Assembly (NCBI RefSeq): GCF_005843985.1
Contig: NZ_CP040463.1
Coordinates: 156,501 to 220,500, forward strand
Direction: 5' to 3'
DNA from: Caminibacter mediatlanticus TB-2
Lineage (GTDB): Bacteria; Campylobacterota; Campylobacteria; Campylobacterales; Nautiliaceae
Length of the DNA stretch: 64,000 nucleotides
Below, one piece after another: positions 53,285 to 59,605 of this stretch (the stretch's first letter is position 1; each line of letters starts with the position of its first letter). The notes under the pieces are model-generated. The model did not search any database, was not told the DNA's origin, and worked only from the letters and a program-made list of their open reading frames with translations. Position numbers and translations under genes: made by a program.

Positions 53285-54100
53285 ATGAAAAAGTTTATAT
53301 TAATTTTAATATTTCTTAATTTTGTGAATGCAAAAATAGTTGATAGGGTAGTTGCAGTTGTTAATGGAGAACCTATAACTTCATATGATATTACTAAAAC
53401 ATTTAAGTCTTTAAATATTTCCCCAAGAGAAGCATTAAATATCTTGATTGACCAAAAAATTATTGAAAATGAAATTAAAAGAAGAGGTATAGAGGTTGAT
53501 GATTTCGATATAGAAAATGCAATTGAAAAAATTGCAAAACAAAATGGAATGAGTGTTTTTGAATTTAAAAATTATCTTAAAGAAAGAGGAGAATATAATA
53601 ATTTTCTTAAAAATTTAAAAAAAGATATTCAAAAGCAAAAATTATTTGCTCAAATTGTTAATTCTAAATTAAAAGTATCCAATAAAGAATTAAAAAATTT
53701 TTATGACCAAAACAAAGAAAAATTTACTACATTTAAACAGATAGAAGTTATTGAATATATCTCACAAAATCCAGATGAATTAAAACATATTAAAAAAAAT
53801 CCTTTATATAATTCTTCAAATATTAAAATAGAAAATAGAGTATTTAAATATAATCAAATTCCTTTAAATTTGATGTTTTTATTTAACTCTACAAAAGAGG
53901 GTGAATTTATGCCTATTATTAATAATGGAAATAGCTATGTAATGTTTTATATTAATAAAAAAGAGGGAAAAGTAATATTACCATTTGAACAAATAAAAAA
54001 TATTATTGCAAATCAATTAATGCAACAAAAAAGAAATGCAATTTTAAAAGAATATTTTAATACTTTAAAAAATCAAGCAGATATTGAGATTTTCAAATAA
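53285..54100 (+). CDS. SurA-like periplasmic foldase
   Basis: 271 residues with a signal peptide (about 1-17). AVVNGEPITSYDITKTFKSL and LIDQKIIENEIKRRG are SurA_N features. A short parvulin-like region may follow (about 125-230), but it is divergent. It should chaperone outer-membrane proteins such as the nearby TonB-type receptor. Its stop overlaps that of the convergent GGDEF-EAL gene. Confidence 0.8.
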   Translation: MKKFILILIFLNFVNAKIVDRVVAVVNGEPITSYDITKTFKSLNISPREALNILIDQKIIENEIKRRGIEVDDFDIENAIEKIAKQNGMSVFEFKNYLKERGEYNNFLKNLKKDIQKQKLFAQIVNSKLKVSNKELKNFYDQNKEKFTTFKQIEVIEYISQNPDELKHIKKNPLYNSSNIKIENRVFKYNQIPLNLMFLFNSTKEGEFMPIINNGNSYVMFYINKKEGKVILPFEQIKNIIANQLMQQKRNAILKEYFNTLKNQADIEIFK

Positions 54101-55925
54101 TTTTTTCTATTTCTTCTATTGGTAGAGGAAGGGAAATATAATAACCTTGAATATAATCAACATTTAATGATTTTAAGATTTTAAATGAATCTTTATCTTC
54201 AACAAATTCTGCAATAGTTTTTGCATTAAATTCTTTTGCAAGTATTACAATTGTTTTAATGATTTTTTGTGCATTAATATTTGATCTTACTTCTTTTACT
54301 ATACTACTATCTATTTTTATATAATCAGGTGTGATATATGTTAAATAACTTAAATTACTATAATCACTTCCAAAATCATCAATAGATATTTTAATTCCTT
54401 TTTCTTTTAAAATTTTTAACTGATTTTGTAATTTTTGAATATTTTCTATTTGTTCGTTTTCTAAGATTTCAATAGATAAAAATGATAGTAAGTCTTTATA
54501 TTTTTTTTCTTTTTCATCAAAAAGTGTAATAAACTTTTCATCAAAAAAATCTTTTGCAAAAAAGTTAACACTAATTTCAACTTTATATTTACTTATTGTT
54601 TTAAAAACTTTATCTAAAATAATAGAAGTAAAATCACGATATGTATTTGTATTTTTAATATTTTCTAAAAAAGTATTTGGTGAAAATATTTCATCCTTAT
54701 ATTTTATTCTTGCTAATGCTTCAAATTTTTCAATCTTATTTGTTTTTATATTTAGGATAGGTTGTAAATAAACTAAAATTGAATTACTTTCTATAAAGTC
54801 AGTTATTTCATTTATAGCAAATATTTTTTCACTATTTTCTGAATAAATGCAGTATTTATTTTTTCCAGTTCTTTTTGCTTTATATAACTCTTGGTCCGCT
54901 TTTTTTATAGCTTCAAAAATATTTTTTTCTTTTTCTGGTTCCAAATGAACTCCTCCTGATATTGTAATAAATAGTTTTTTATTTCCAATGTTTATTGGAG
55001 TGTTTCTTATCGTGTTAAATATTTTTTCTATTTTTTTTAAAGCATCTTTTTGTTCTATATTATTTAAAATAAGTAAAAATTCTTCTCCACCATATCTAAT
55101 TAAATAATCATTACTTCTAATTTGTGATTTAATAGTTTGAGTTAAATTTTTTAAAACTATATCTCCAATATTATGTCCATAAGTATCATTAATCTTTTTA
55201 AAATTGTCAATATCAAATATTAATAATGCTGTTTTTTTTATATTTTCATTTTCTATTCTATTTATTATTTTTCTATTATATGTATTAGTTAAAGGGTCAA
55301 TAAGTGATTGGAATTTTTCTTTATAGAATTTAAAAATAAAAAAATTCATATAAAAAATAAGTAATAATATAAATGTTACTACAATTATAAATATATTTTT
55401 AAAAATTTTTAATAAGTCATTAAATTTATTATATGCATTTAAAGAGATATCCATAGCGATAATATAATTTATCTTGTTTTGTTTTATTATTGGGTATAAG
55501 AAAGTTAGCCAAACATTATCAATTTTTTTATTTATTTCATATACTGGTGTTTTTTGAGTATAAACTTTTTCCCAAATTTTTTTATTAAGTGGTTCAAATG
55601 GTTGATATTTAATTGCTCTTTCATTTATAGGGGAACCATCATAGATATATTTATATTTTCCATTAATTTTTTTTATGATAAAAACATATTTGATGTCTTT
55701 ATTTAATAAAAGATTTAAAATATCATTTTTATTTTTATAATGAGAATTTAAAATTTTTTCTACTTTATAAGCAGTATTAAAAGCGTTTTGAATTTCGATA
55801 TTCATAATAGCATTATTAAATTCTTTTTCAAAGTATTTCATTAATATATATATAAGAAAAAAAGTAAATAATATTATTATAATAAATCTAATAGCTAATT
55901 TTAAAAGATAATTTCCGATTGTCAT
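54093..55925 (-). CDS. Membrane GGDEF-EAL c-di-GMP enzyme
   Basis: 610 residues. Two membrane helices (about 10-28 and 175-198) bracket a periplasmic sensor of about 145 residues. GGEEF (279-283) is the intact cyclase motif. The EAL domain begins at EAL (402-404) and keeps SIDDFGSDYSNLSYL, KIDSSIV and QGYYIS, the metal and base residues. Both making and breaking c-di-GMP are possible. The two genes upstream encode an outer-membrane receptor-like protein and a small periplasmic protein, suggesting that the sensor listens to them. Confidence 0.85.
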   Translation of the reverse strand: MTIGNYLLKLAIRFIIIILFTFFLIYILMKYFEKEFNNAIMNIEIQNAFNTAYKVEKILNSHYKNKNDILNLLLNKDIKYVFIIKKINGKYKYIYDGSPINERAIKYQPFEPLNKKIWEKVYTQKTPVYEINKKIDNVWLTFLYPIIKQNKINYIIAMDISLNAYNKFNDLLKIFKNIFIIVVTFILLLIFYMNFFIFKFYKEKFQSLIDPLTNTYNRKIINRIENENIKKTALLIFDIDNFKKINDTYGHNIGDIVLKNLTQTIKSQIRSNDYLIRYGGEEFLLILNNIEQKDALKKIEKIFNTIRNTPINIGNKKLFITISGGVHLEPEKEKNIFEAIKKADQELYKAKRTGKNKYCIYSENSEKIFAINEITDFIESNSILVYLQPILNIKTNKIEKFEALARIKYKDEIFSPNTFLENIKNTNTYRDFTSIILDKVFKTISKYKVEISVNFFAKDFFDEKFITLFDEKEKKYKDLLSFLSIEILENEQIENIQKLQNQLKILKEKGIKISIDDFGSDYSNLSYLTYITPDYIKIDSSIVKEVRSNINAQKIIKTIVILAKEFNAKTIAEFVEDKDSFKILKSLNVDYIQGYYISLPLPIEEIEKII

Positions 55926-56338
55926 TCTATAAAACTTTGGTATTTATTAGGTATTTTAATATTGTATTTATTTATATATTCTTTGTTAAAAATAATTGTA
56001 GGTCTGCCTTTTTGCCAAAAAAAAGCACCTGCAATATACTTTTTATGTTTTATATATTCAATATAAGATGTTACAAAAATTATTTTATTTTTATAATGTT
56101 TTGAAAAATTTTCAACAAAACAAATATTAGCATATTCACATTTATTTATTATGACAAAAGGAAAATCTAAATACGATTTAGCATCATTAAAATACTTTGA
56201 ATTAATGTAAATTTTATATGGCGTTTTTTTTACAAAAATTATTGTTATTTGTTTAATTAATTCTGCTTTTAATTTATTAACATCTGCACTGAATAAATGA
56301 GTAATAAAAACAAGTAGTAAAATATATCTTTTAATCAT
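55922..56338 (-). CDS. Small periplasmic protein of the c-di-GMP cluster
   Basis: 138 residues with a signal peptide (about 1-18, ending LFSADV). The layout (helix, three or four strands, KKYIAGAFFWQKGRPTIIFN and a last helix) loosely resembles the YfiR/DUF4154 fold, which inhibits a membrane cyclase in other bacteria, but no diagnostic motif is sure. It overlaps the GGDEF-EAL gene by four bases and follows the receptor gene by 15. The role as a link between receptor and enzyme is inferred from position. Confidence 0.55.
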   Translation of the reverse strand: MIKRYILLLVFITHLFSADVNKLKAELIKQITIIFVKKTPYKIYINSKYFNDAKSYLDFPFVIINKCEYANICFVENFSKHYKNKIIFVTSYIEYIKHKKYIAGAFFWQKGRPTIIFNKEYINKYNIKIPNKYQSFIE

Positions 56339-56353
56339 TCAAAACTCTATTTA

Positions 56354-58177
56354 TTAAAATTTCCATTCAATACCTCCAACAAATACTCTTTCAATAGGTT
56401 CTGCTTTAAAAGTTTGAAGGGAATTAGTCAACGGATTATAAGAGATATATTCTGTTTTTAAGGTTTTATTTAAAATATTTATACCTTTAAAATAAACTTC
56501 AAAATTTTTGAATTTTTTTGAAATAGTTGTATTTAAATTAATATTTTCTTGATTAAGATTATTTTTATAATAAATTAATGATGTATAAAAACTCCAAACA
56601 TCTTTATTAAAGAAAAAATTATTTGTAAAACCATTAGAAATTATCATTTTTTTATGAGGGATTTGAATATATGCTCTCCATACTCTTATATTGTTTTTTA
56701 TTTTATTTTTTATGTAAGTGTATGATATTAAATAATTATTATATTTATGATAGTTAGAATCATTTATTAATCCTATTTTAGGAATATTAACAATTACATT
56801 CTTCATTTTTGTATTTGTATATAAGAAGTAAAATTTGTTATATTTAGCTTTAAATGAATATGATTTTGTGTCTATTTTTGAAAGATTTTTGTTAATAAAA
56901 ATCATTTCAGGTGTTGGTATAAAACTACCTTGATAATAAAAAGTTTTAAAGGTAAATTTTTTATCATTATAAATGTAGCCAACTTTTTTTGAAATATTTT
57001 TAAATTTTTTTATATTAATGTAATTATCAATTTTATAATTGTAAGATAAAGTAAAAAGATTGTTTTGATTTAATAAATATGTATATTCACATCCTATACT
57101 TTTTTTATAAATTTTATTGAAATTTTGTAATTTATATTCGATACCATCATAATAGTTTTGAATATTAAATAAATCTTTTCCTAAATTTCCTTGCAAAAAT
57201 AAAGAAGAATTATTTAAAGTAAATTTATTAGATATTTTTATACTATATGTACTTTGTTTTAAATTATTTTTTGATTCATAATAAATTTTATTATTATAAT
57301 ATCCTAATATATCATCATTTTTCTGATAAGACTTTGAATCTACATATTGAAACAAAGTTAATATTTTAAAATTATTTTTTTTGTAATTAATATTAAATAG
57401 ATAATAAGAAGGTTTTATATAATTATTAATAGGAGATATAGTAAAACTATTTCCTATAAATGAATTTTTTTTAAATTTAGTAATTAACGAAAAAAGTTCA
57501 AAATTATTAAAATCAAAACTGCCTACAAAAGTTTTTCCAAAAATATTTCTATTTAGATTATATTTGTTAAATGTATAGTTTTTTCTGTAAATATTATCAT
57601 TAGCAAAAAAAAGGTAATATGATTTATTTTCATTTCCAAATCCAGAAGAAATATACTCTTCATTTAATTTTCTACTTCCAATTAAACCTCCTAATATGTT
57701 TGAATTTTCTCTGTAACCTTTTTTAGTATAAATTTTAATTATACTCCAAGCGGGAGATTGTGAAATTTCAAATGATGGCATACCAATATATATTTCAATA
57801 TGGTCTATATATTTAGTTGTTATTTGACCTATGATTTGTAATACATCTCCTCCAATTGGCAATGTTACTTCATTATCATTAATAATTAATTTAATCATAT
57901 AAGGATTTTTAGGTTGAAATGGTAGATATAATAGGTCAATTAATGCGTTACTGTCTTCATTATACTTAAAAAAAGGAATTTGTTCTAATATTTCTTTTAG
58001 ACTTAAAATTTTCATATTATCTAAATCTTCTCTTGTATAGACAATTACGTATCCCGCATTTTCTTTTTTAGTTTTTTGTGATAAATCATCACTAACGCAA
58101 AGTTCATTTAATAAATTATTTAAATCAGCTGAAAAAACTATAATTGTAGTTAAAATTAAAAGAATGATTTTTTTCAT
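56354..58177 (-). CDS. TonB-dependent receptor-like outer-membrane protein
   Basis: 607 residues with a signal peptide (about 1-16). The plug domain (about 42-155) is recognisable: VIVYTREDLDNMKILSLKEI, YLPFQPKNPYMIKLIINDNE, HIEIYIGMPSFEISQSPAWS. The rest is Asn/Tyr/Lys-rich beta strands ending EWKF, as in outer-membrane barrels. The TonB box is not clear. It shares an operon with a periplasmic protein and a c-di-GMP enzyme, so it may act in sensing rather than in iron uptake alone. The ligand is unknown. Confidence 0.75.
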   Translation of the reverse strand: MKKIILLILTTIIVFSADLNNLLNELCVSDDLSQKTKKENAGYVIVYTREDLDNMKILSLKEILEQIPFFKYNEDSNALIDLLYLPFQPKNPYMIKLIINDNEVTLPIGGDVLQIIGQITTKYIDHIEIYIGMPSFEISQSPAWSIIKIYTKKGYRENSNILGGLIGSRKLNEEYISSGFGNENKSYYLFFANDNIYRKNYTFNKYNLNRNIFGKTFVGSFDFNNFELFSLITKFKKNSFIGNSFTISPINNYIKPSYYLFNINYKKNNFKILTLFQYVDSKSYQKNDDILGYYNNKIYYESKNNLKQSTYSIKISNKFTLNNSSLFLQGNLGKDLFNIQNYYDGIEYKLQNFNKIYKKSIGCEYTYLLNQNNLFTLSYNYKIDNYINIKKFKNISKKVGYIYNDKKFTFKTFYYQGSFIPTPEMIFINKNLSKIDTKSYSFKAKYNKFYFLYTNTKMKNVIVNIPKIGLINDSNYHKYNNYLISYTYIKNKIKNNIRVWRAYIQIPHKKMIISNGFTNNFFFNKDVWSFYTSLIYYKNNLNQENINLNTTISKKFKNFEVYFKGINILNKTLKTEYISYNPLTNSLQTFKAEPIERVFVGGIEWKF

Positions 58178-58200: not shown

Positions 58201-58545
58201 TTAGTCCTTTATATTACACATTAAGATATCGACATTTCCTTCTATTTTTTTAAATTTATTTTCTTCTTTTTTCCAAATTTCGTAATTTATATCATTTTTT
58301 TGTAATATTTTTTTTATTTTTTCTTTTTCTTTTGTAAGAATAGTTACTCCACATTCTTTAAAAATTTCATTTGGTGTAGGAATAGATTTTATATTTTCTT
58401 TTTTTAATAGATGTTCTACTTTTAGGCCTGTTGGAATATCTTCAAATACAAAGTAATAATAATCATCTAACTTATCTGTTATTTTAAAAATAATTTCTTG
58501 AATATGTAGCCTAATACCTGCTGGTAAATATTTAAGCTCAGCCAT
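58201..58545 (-). CDS. DUF3343 (Se/S-carrier-like) protein
   Basis: 114 residues. YYYFVFEDIPTGLKVEHLLK, IPTPNEIFKECGVTILT and the C-terminal part match DUF3343, thought to carry sulfur or selenium on the conserved Cys (here in ECGVTI). Often near selenium or RNA-modification genes; here it overlaps rlmN by eight bases. Confidence 0.7.
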   Translation of the reverse strand: MAELKYLPAGIRLHIQEIIFKITDKLDDYYYFVFEDIPTGLKVEHLLKKENIKSIPTPNEIFKECGVTILTKEKEKIKKILQKNDINYEIWKKEENKFKKIEGNVDILMCNIKD

Positions 58546-59605
58546 TATTTTCCTTTAATTCTTTTTCTCTTAATTGTCCACAAGCTGCTGAAATGTCTAT
58601 TCCTTTGCTTTGTCTTATTGTGCATGTTATTCCTCTATCAAGCAGATATCTTTGAAATTTTTTCATTGTTTCTTCATCAGGTCTTTTAAATGGACTTCCA
58701 GGATATGGATTAAAATATATTAAGTTCACTTTACTTGGAATTCCATTTAATAGTTTTACTAATTTTTTTGCAGAATCTAAATTATCATTAACATCTTTTA
58801 TTACTAAATATTCAAACATTACTTTTTTTCTTTTATCAATTGGAAATTCTCTTATAGCTTCTATTACACTTTGGATATTATAAGCTTTATTGAGAGGTAT
58901 TAGTTGTTCTCTTAATTTATCATCTACTGCATGAAGAGAAATTGCTAAATTCACTCCTAAGTTTTCTTCTCCAAGTTTTTTTATTTTTGGTGCTATTCCA
59001 GAAGTTGAAACTGTTTGTCTTCTAGGGGCTATATTTAATCCATTAGTATGAGCAATTATTTTAATAGCTTTTACTAAATTATTATAATTATCAAGAGGTT
59101 CACCCATTCCCATAAAAACTACATTTAAAGCTTTGTTTTCATCAAAATTTTTGAATTTTTTCATAAACCATACTTGTGCGACAATTTCCCCAGCACTTAA
59201 ATTTCTTACAAATCCTCCTTTTGCAGTTAGACAAAATGCACATCCAACTTTACATCCAACTTGTGTTGAAACACAAACAGTATATTTTGCTTCCTTTTTT
59301 TTACCATTTTCAACTCTGTCATCTTTCATTTTAATTAATACTGTTTCAATTGTATGATTATCATTAAGTTTAAAAAGAAATTTTTCAGTTCCATCACTTG
59401 CTATTTCATGATTAATAAGTTCAAGTGGATTTATATAAAATTCTTTTTTTAATTTTTTTCTTAAATCTTTTGGTATATTACTCATTTTTTCAAAATCATC
59501 AACATATTTTCTATATACCCAATTATAAAGTTGTTTTATTCTAAATTTAGGCTGAATGCCCAATTCTAATAGTTTTTCTGGTAAATATTCCATAAAACAT
59601 TTCAT
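58538..59605 (-). CDS. rlmN: 23S rRNA/tRNA adenine-C2 methyltransferase
   Basis: 355 residues. Radical-SAM CxxxCxxC sits in GCKVGCAFCLTAKGG. VFMGMGEPLDN, VSTSGIAPKI and the C-terminal Cys in ISAACGQL complete the RlmN pattern. It methylates A2503 of 23S rRNA and some tRNAs. In an operon with the DUF3343 protein and the nucleosidase gene. Confidence 0.94.
   Translation of the reverse strand: MKCFMEYLPEKLLELGIQPKFRIKQLYNWVYRKYVDDFEKMSNIPKDLRKKLKKEFYINPLELINHEIASDGTEKFLFKLNDNHTIETVLIKMKDDRVENGKKKEAKYTVCVSTQVGCKVGCAFCLTAKGGFVRNLSAGEIVAQVWFMKKFKNFDENKALNVVFMGMGEPLDNYNNLVKAIKIIAHTNGLNIAPRRQTVSTSGIAPKIKKLGEENLGVNLAISLHAVDDKLREQLIPLNKAYNIQSVIEAIREFPIDKRKKVMFEYLVIKDVNDNLDSAKKLVKLLNGIPSKVNLIYFNPYPGSPFKRPDEETMKKFQRYLLDRGITCTIRQSKGIDISAACGQLREKELKENNG

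Follow-up and report, generated by a model that had tools for sequence, protein, structure and literature searches.

A candidate trans-envelope signalling cassette in Caminibacter mediatlanticus combining a TonB-receptor-like barrel, a YfiR-like relay and a sensor with exchangeable outputs

Three adjacent genes in a 64,000-nucleotide stretch of the closed, 1.69-Mb genome of Caminibacter mediatlanticus TB-2 (contig NZ_CP040463.1, positions 156,501 to 220,500; the window) encode a predicted outer-membrane TonB-receptor-like barrel, a small exported protein with a YfiR-like fold (the relay), and an inner-membrane sensor with GGDEF and EAL domains. With a probability of roughly 0.62, the three form one trans-envelope signalling unit, in which the signal would pass from the receptor through the relay to the PAS/Cache-like domain of the sensor and thereby to cyclic di-GMP (c-di-GMP). 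The open reading frames (ORFs) occupy window positions 54093-58177 on the minus strand, exactly in the order and with the spacing described in an earlier sequence-only reading, a 15-base gap separating barrel from relay and a 4-base overlap joining relay to sensor. Barrel and relay both begin with signal-peptide-like segments, as judged by eye.

The arrangement recurs across Campylobacterota far beyond chance. Relay relatives occur in 20 of 60 related genomes and, by family-profile search, in 87 of 397 Campylobacterota genomes, while a search of plasmids found none. Scanning named genome contigs with the relay motif provided 80 loci with 81 relay copies for examination, the nearest named relative being a Nautiliales metagenome-assembled genome (MAG). 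Because the search pattern came from the relay motif alone, the neighbours of these copies were unselected in retrieval. In 78 of the 81 copies the gene directly upstream of the relay encodes a barrel relative, and in 74 the one directly downstream encodes a protein that shares the N-terminal sensor region; at both junctions a 4-base overlap is the most frequent spacing. The genes flanking the trio vary between loci, whereas its order is conserved across the phylum. Co-occurrence had been set beforehand as a test able to refute this grouping, and its outcome favours a functional unit. One relay match, in genome G030 (locus L020), was discarded, containing in-frame stops and having an E-value of 0.001.

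The 610-amino-acid sensor contains EAL (8e-56) and GGDEF (5e-38) domains according to Pfam, which returned no HAMP match. The GGEEF motif is present with an I-site RxxD five residues upstream, and the EAL motif is accompanied by all other EAL active-site positions (N, E, DD, K, E and Q). Since both sets of motifs are intact, the protein may both synthesize and degrade c-di-GMP, and the earlier proposal of a membrane protein with intact GGEEF and EAL motifs is borne out by domain matches and retained active-site residues. AlphaFold models the first 200 residues (predicted local distance difference test score, pLDDT, 94) as a PAS/Cache-like domain flanked by two long helices. Among Protein Data Bank (PDB) entries, Foldseek matches this region best to the extracytoplasmic domains of WalK and KinD; 8 of 71 sensor-family members give weak Pfam dCache matches.

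The output attached to this sensor region differs between loci. The 74 downstream copies comprise 46 GGDEF-EAL proteins, 17 with GGDEF alone, 7 histidine kinases, and 4 that are truncated or unassigned. Two kinase variants were verified as HisKA/HATPase proteins, one of them followed by a PAS and EAL response regulator, and a similar gene is found at several more kinase loci. A tree of the sensor region contains five output changes, one of which (locus L115) may be a contig-end effect. As the output varies on a constant sensor region, the conserved core is made up of the receptor, the relay and the sensor domain, and the enzyme can be exchanged.

Searched alone, the window barrel gave no significant Pfam match; 53 of 60 members of its family match the Pfam Plug model, and a profile of the family can be aligned along almost its entire length with BtuB (1.2e-9). 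Through these two matches the plug in a 22-strand barrel that defines TonB-dependent receptors is predicted for the protein, which to judge by its sequence is a divergent TonB-receptor homologue, in keeping with the receptor-like barrel first proposed. The mature N-terminus is hydrophilic and conserved (SDLSxxTKxExAG) and leads into the plug start YTRxDLxxM. Five of its positions, L32, S33, T36, K37 and G42, are each shared by 92% or more of 60 sequences; inspection of this N-terminus by eye revealed no evident TonB box. The STN domain is absent from the Pfam matches of the barrel and its family, and a search of the host genome found neither another plug-type receptor nor a paralogue of the barrel.

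For the relay, single-sequence searches against Pfam, NCBIfam and PDB yielded nothing useful, and its profile, compared with PDB by sequence alone, gave matches at chance level. The Pfam DUF4154 model (PF13689) matched none of the 79 relay-family members and nothing in the host genome, and because this hidden Markov model test was negative, profile-profile and fold comparisons were used. Aligned by hhalign with same-phylum DUF4154 proteins, a comparison that the sequence-only reading had proposed, the relay family of 79 sequences scored 92.6% over 136 columns, the full length, against a probability of 0.5% in a control comparison with the sensor domain; weaker results were 18% against a weak DUF4154 branch and 60% with a first, smaller relay alignment. 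The 14 best PDB matches of the AlphaFold model (mean pLDDT 94) are 3LKV, a Rhodothermus substrate-binding protein (three entries), 3LFT, and nine YfiR or YfiB-YfiR chains, of which 3LKV and 3LFT are structural neighbours reported for YfiR itself (PMC4655355). The YfiR chains match with Foldseek probabilities of 0.87-0.99, an E-value of about 0.01 and a template modelling (TM) score of about 0.5, and given the last two values the relationship is remote. The 138-amino-acid relay is accordingly best modelled as a remote YfiR-fold protein; the resemblance goes beyond the loosely YfiR-like layout originally noted, but by the Pfam model the relay is not a DUF4154 member.

The relay family lacks the two conserved cysteine pairs of YfiR, its only common cysteines being at alignment columns 67 (48/79) and 82 (45/79), one of which is present in the window relay. 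The model places a hairpin, G-F-W-KGRP, between its final two strands. Residues G104, K110, R112 and P113 of this hairpin are invariant in a 21-sequence set chosen without the motif; in the 79-sequence set, which was retrieved with F-W-KGRP as the pattern, invariance of the motif follows in part from the selection itself. In YfiR, YfiB binds to a conserved surface to which the last strand belongs and which overlaps residues implicated in YfiN binding (PMC4655355). The relay probably contacts its own partners through the KGRP hairpin surface.

Receptors of the TonB type normally depend on the TonB motor. TonB_C is found by Pfam in 383 of 397 Campylobacterota genomes. Of the 14 genomes missing it, 9 belong to the host family, host included, and account for every member of that family in the sample. 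TonB_2 is absent from all 16 host-family genomes searched and present in all 10 other genomes of that search. Every host-family genome contains exactly one ExbD-family gene, which in the host sits within the cluster tolQ-tolR-(TolA position)-tolB-pal, and in the ExbB search of the host genome the sole MotA/ExbB match besides TolQ is a 259-amino-acid protein of MotA length. The TolA position, between tolR and tolB, is occupied by a 233-amino-acid protein (L226:4273-4974; host contig C1, about 1422772-1423473) with no Pfam match, a candidate for a very divergent TolA or for a TolA/TonB stand-in. Given this candidate, the case for the absence of TonB from the host is strong, not closed. That the barrel stays intact although no motor to energise it could be detected points to sensing, not transport, and the barrel probably acts in the host as a TonB-independent sensor.

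In the proposed mechanism, an extracellular ligand would be bound by the outer-membrane barrel, probably without the use of TonB. Binding would alter the periplasmic face of the barrel, formed by the plug together with the conserved SDLSxxTKxE stretch at the N-terminus, and this face would in turn capture or release the YfiR-fold relay. The relay, probably via its hairpin surface, would then contact the periplasmic PAS/Cache-like domain of the sensor, either repressing it, as YfiR does, or activating it. The resulting change of state would set the balance between GGDEF and EAL activities and shift local c-di-GMP. In related cassettes the receiver of the signal would be a GGDEF protein without EAL or a histidine kinase, the latter accompanied at several loci by a PAS-EAL response regulator. 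A broader proposal is advanced more tentatively, at slightly below even chances: that these loci form a widespread Campylobacterota cassette class in which the TonB-receptor fold serves purely as an outer-membrane sensor and is coupled through a YfiR-fold relay to a PAS/Cache sensor, with outputs (c-di-GMP synthesis, c-di-GMP turnover or phosphorelay) swapped between lineages and with no TonB motor at work in the host family.

Several observations weigh against a single signalling unit of this kind. The sensor-domain gene is not adjacent in 7 of the 81 relay copies, one partnerless relay lying near a contig end and another being the first of two tandem receptor-relay units, and the receptor gene is broken in a few trios. 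The structural match between relay and YfiR reaches only the E-value and TM score given above, and the protein at the TolA position may supply the function taken to be missing. Co-variation controlled for paralogues is mixed, at 0.68 for relay and sensor and below half in two genomes; the distance-matrix correlations of 0.81-0.87 leave shared ancestry uncontrolled and hence are not counted as evidence of contact.

Among other explanations, the foremost, considered unlikely, is that the barrel transports a nutrient or metal and the relay, as a binding protein of half the usual size, carries the ligand to the PAS/Cache domain in the way that binding proteins serve some sensor kinases, the signal reporting uptake and not receptor occupancy. 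The relay model does match substrate-binding proteins (3LKV, 3LFT and the Rhodothermus protein), and TonB is present in most other trio-bearing members of the phylum. However, the host and its family keep an intact receptor with no detectable TonB-ExbBD, the relay has one small domain only and lacks the second lobe that those binding proteins possess, and YfiR, which is no part of a transporter, has the same structural neighbours (PMC4655355). Less probable still is an envelope-stress monitor, in which the barrel reports folding or integrity and a misassembled or missing barrel frees the relay, comparable to YfiB and redox control in YfiBNR. The barrel family retains plug features needless for an integrity reporter, and of the two partly conserved cysteines that would favour such a role in the relay family, the window relay has just one. 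That three unrelated genes simply share transcription, as the closeness of unrelated same-strand genes (rlmN and a DUF3343-like gene) across a 23-base gap might suggest, is highly improbable, being contradicted by co-occurrence in a phylum-wide conserved order and spacing while flanks change.

The signalling unit has parallels among loci with recognized DUF4154 genes, of which 20 from the same phylum were opened (L188-L207). All 15 tested barrels beside these genes are TonB receptors by Pfam, and a gene for a GGDEF, GGDEF-EAL or kinase protein is also present at most of the 20 loci. At L189, DUF4154 and a TonB receptor are found together with a kinase that has the sensor domain of the trio (3e-21). 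On the Sphingobium plasmid pSRL1, genes for a TonB-dependent receptor, a YfiR-family protein and an ATP-binding protein overlap in that order; on a Pseudoalteromonas plasmid, a YfiR-family gene adjoins a receptor that the annotation splits in two. The DUF4154 loci of the phylum and pSRL1 share with the trio its three-part logic and tight gene order, but their receptors match Pfam fully, their relay is standard DUF4154, and their sensor domains are mostly other ones. No description of the receptor-relay-enzyme arrangement was found in the open literature, subscription journals lying outside the search.

The YfiBNR system of Pseudomonas aeruginosa likewise consists of an outer-membrane component, a small periplasmic regulator of the same fold and an inner-membrane protein encoded in one operon (PMC2837407, PMC4655355), the last, YfiN, having a periplasmic PAS-like domain (PMC2837407) and GGDEF as in the trio. 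YfiN also has two helices and HAMP, and in that system the periplasmic regulator, which is itself sequestered at the outer membrane, acts as a repressor of the cyclase. In place of the OmpA-like lipoprotein YfiB, however, the trio has a TonB-receptor barrel; its relay goes unrecognized by the DUF4154 model and lacks the YfiR cysteine pattern; and its sensor has no HAMP match and an added EAL domain, or a kinase as output. With its different outer-membrane partner, and a relay that departs from both the family model and the cysteine pattern, the trio is YfiBNR-like without being a member. The sequence-only reading, which saw YfiBNR-like logic with a barrel replacing YfiB and a dual-domain enzyme, is supported in this likeness, the barrel and the GGDEF-EAL architecture. 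It made no mention of the exchangeable outputs, of receptor-DUF4154-enzyme trios at other loci of the phylum, or of the lack of detectable TonB in the host. FecA-FecR-FecI signalling resembles the trio in that a TonB-type receptor reports an extracellular ligand via a periplasmic step, whereas the trio has no STN domain, anti-sigma factor or sigma factor, its output is c-di-GMP or a kinase, and TonB is probably absent. FecIR-type signalling was rejected on the lack of STN among the Pfam matches and on the neighbours being a relay and a sensor.

To our knowledge, few inputs of c-di-GMP networks are defined. If the trio functions as proposed, a receptor in the outer membrane would be linked directly to c-di-GMP or a phosphorelay in environmental Campylobacterota, many of which come from hydrothermal vents, and the logic of YfiBNR would extend to ligand-type receptors. 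A TonB-receptor fold retained in a lineage without detectable TonB offers a testable case, and one sensor domain with swapped outputs a natural experiment in relaying an outer-membrane signal to differing cytoplasmic outputs. Coordinates of the features are collected in Table 1.

Table 1. Features of the three-gene locus, in window coordinates.
Feature	Position	Strand	Basis
Outer-membrane TonB-receptor-like barrel with plug (predicted), 607 amino acids	56354..58177	-	ORF; Plug matches in the family; BtuB profile alignment
Small exported relay with YfiR-like fold (predicted), 138 amino acids	55922..56338	-	hhalign with DUF4154; AlphaFold; Foldseek match to YfiR
Inner-membrane sensor with GGDEF and EAL domains, 610 amino acids	54093..55925	-	Pfam; catalytic motifs intact
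Membrane helices and periplasmic PAS/Cache-like sensor region, common to all output variants	55326..55925	-	AlphaFold; Foldseek; conservation
GGEEF catalytic motif, preceded by RxxD I-site	55077..55091	-	Sequence motif
EAL catalytic motif	54714..54722	-	Sequence motif
Conserved barrel N-terminal motif DDLSQKTKKENAG, at the expected place of a TonB box	58052..58090	-	Conservation in 60 sequences
Conserved relay hairpin GAFFWQKGRP, probable binding surface (predicted)	56000..56029	-	Conservation; model

Upstream on the same strand, a DUF3343-like (PF11823) gene overlaps rlmN (window 58201-59605). As the trio follows the DUF3343-like gene by 23 bases on that strand, it is possibly co-transcribed with these housekeeping genes. 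A promoter scan was uninformative in this AT-rich DNA, with 73 found against 70.6 expected. The host genome has 23 GGDEF matches in its 1.69 Mb, a c-di-GMP network dense for its size.

Individual loci show departures from the usual layout. The receptor gene is split by an apparent transposon insertion at L044:7197-11213, where the relay and sensor genes stay open, and appears as two ORFs at L048:7037-8913 and L030:4812-6961, where relay and sensor are still open. Trios also occur in a MAG labelled Hydrogenothermaceae (Aquificota; L154), possibly by transfer out of the phylum or through a binning error, and in a MAG labelled Helicobacter pylori (L179), a name that is probably wrong. In two genomes of one genus, a gene of the phosphatidylethanolamine-binding-protein family (PF01161) overlaps the receptor start (L043:9380-9928 and L048:8904-9446) and is a possible lineage-specific fourth member. 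Two receptor-relay units precede one sensor at L177:1-4948, and two receptors precede one relay at L124:2136-8180, tandem copies which suggest that several receptors feed a single output.
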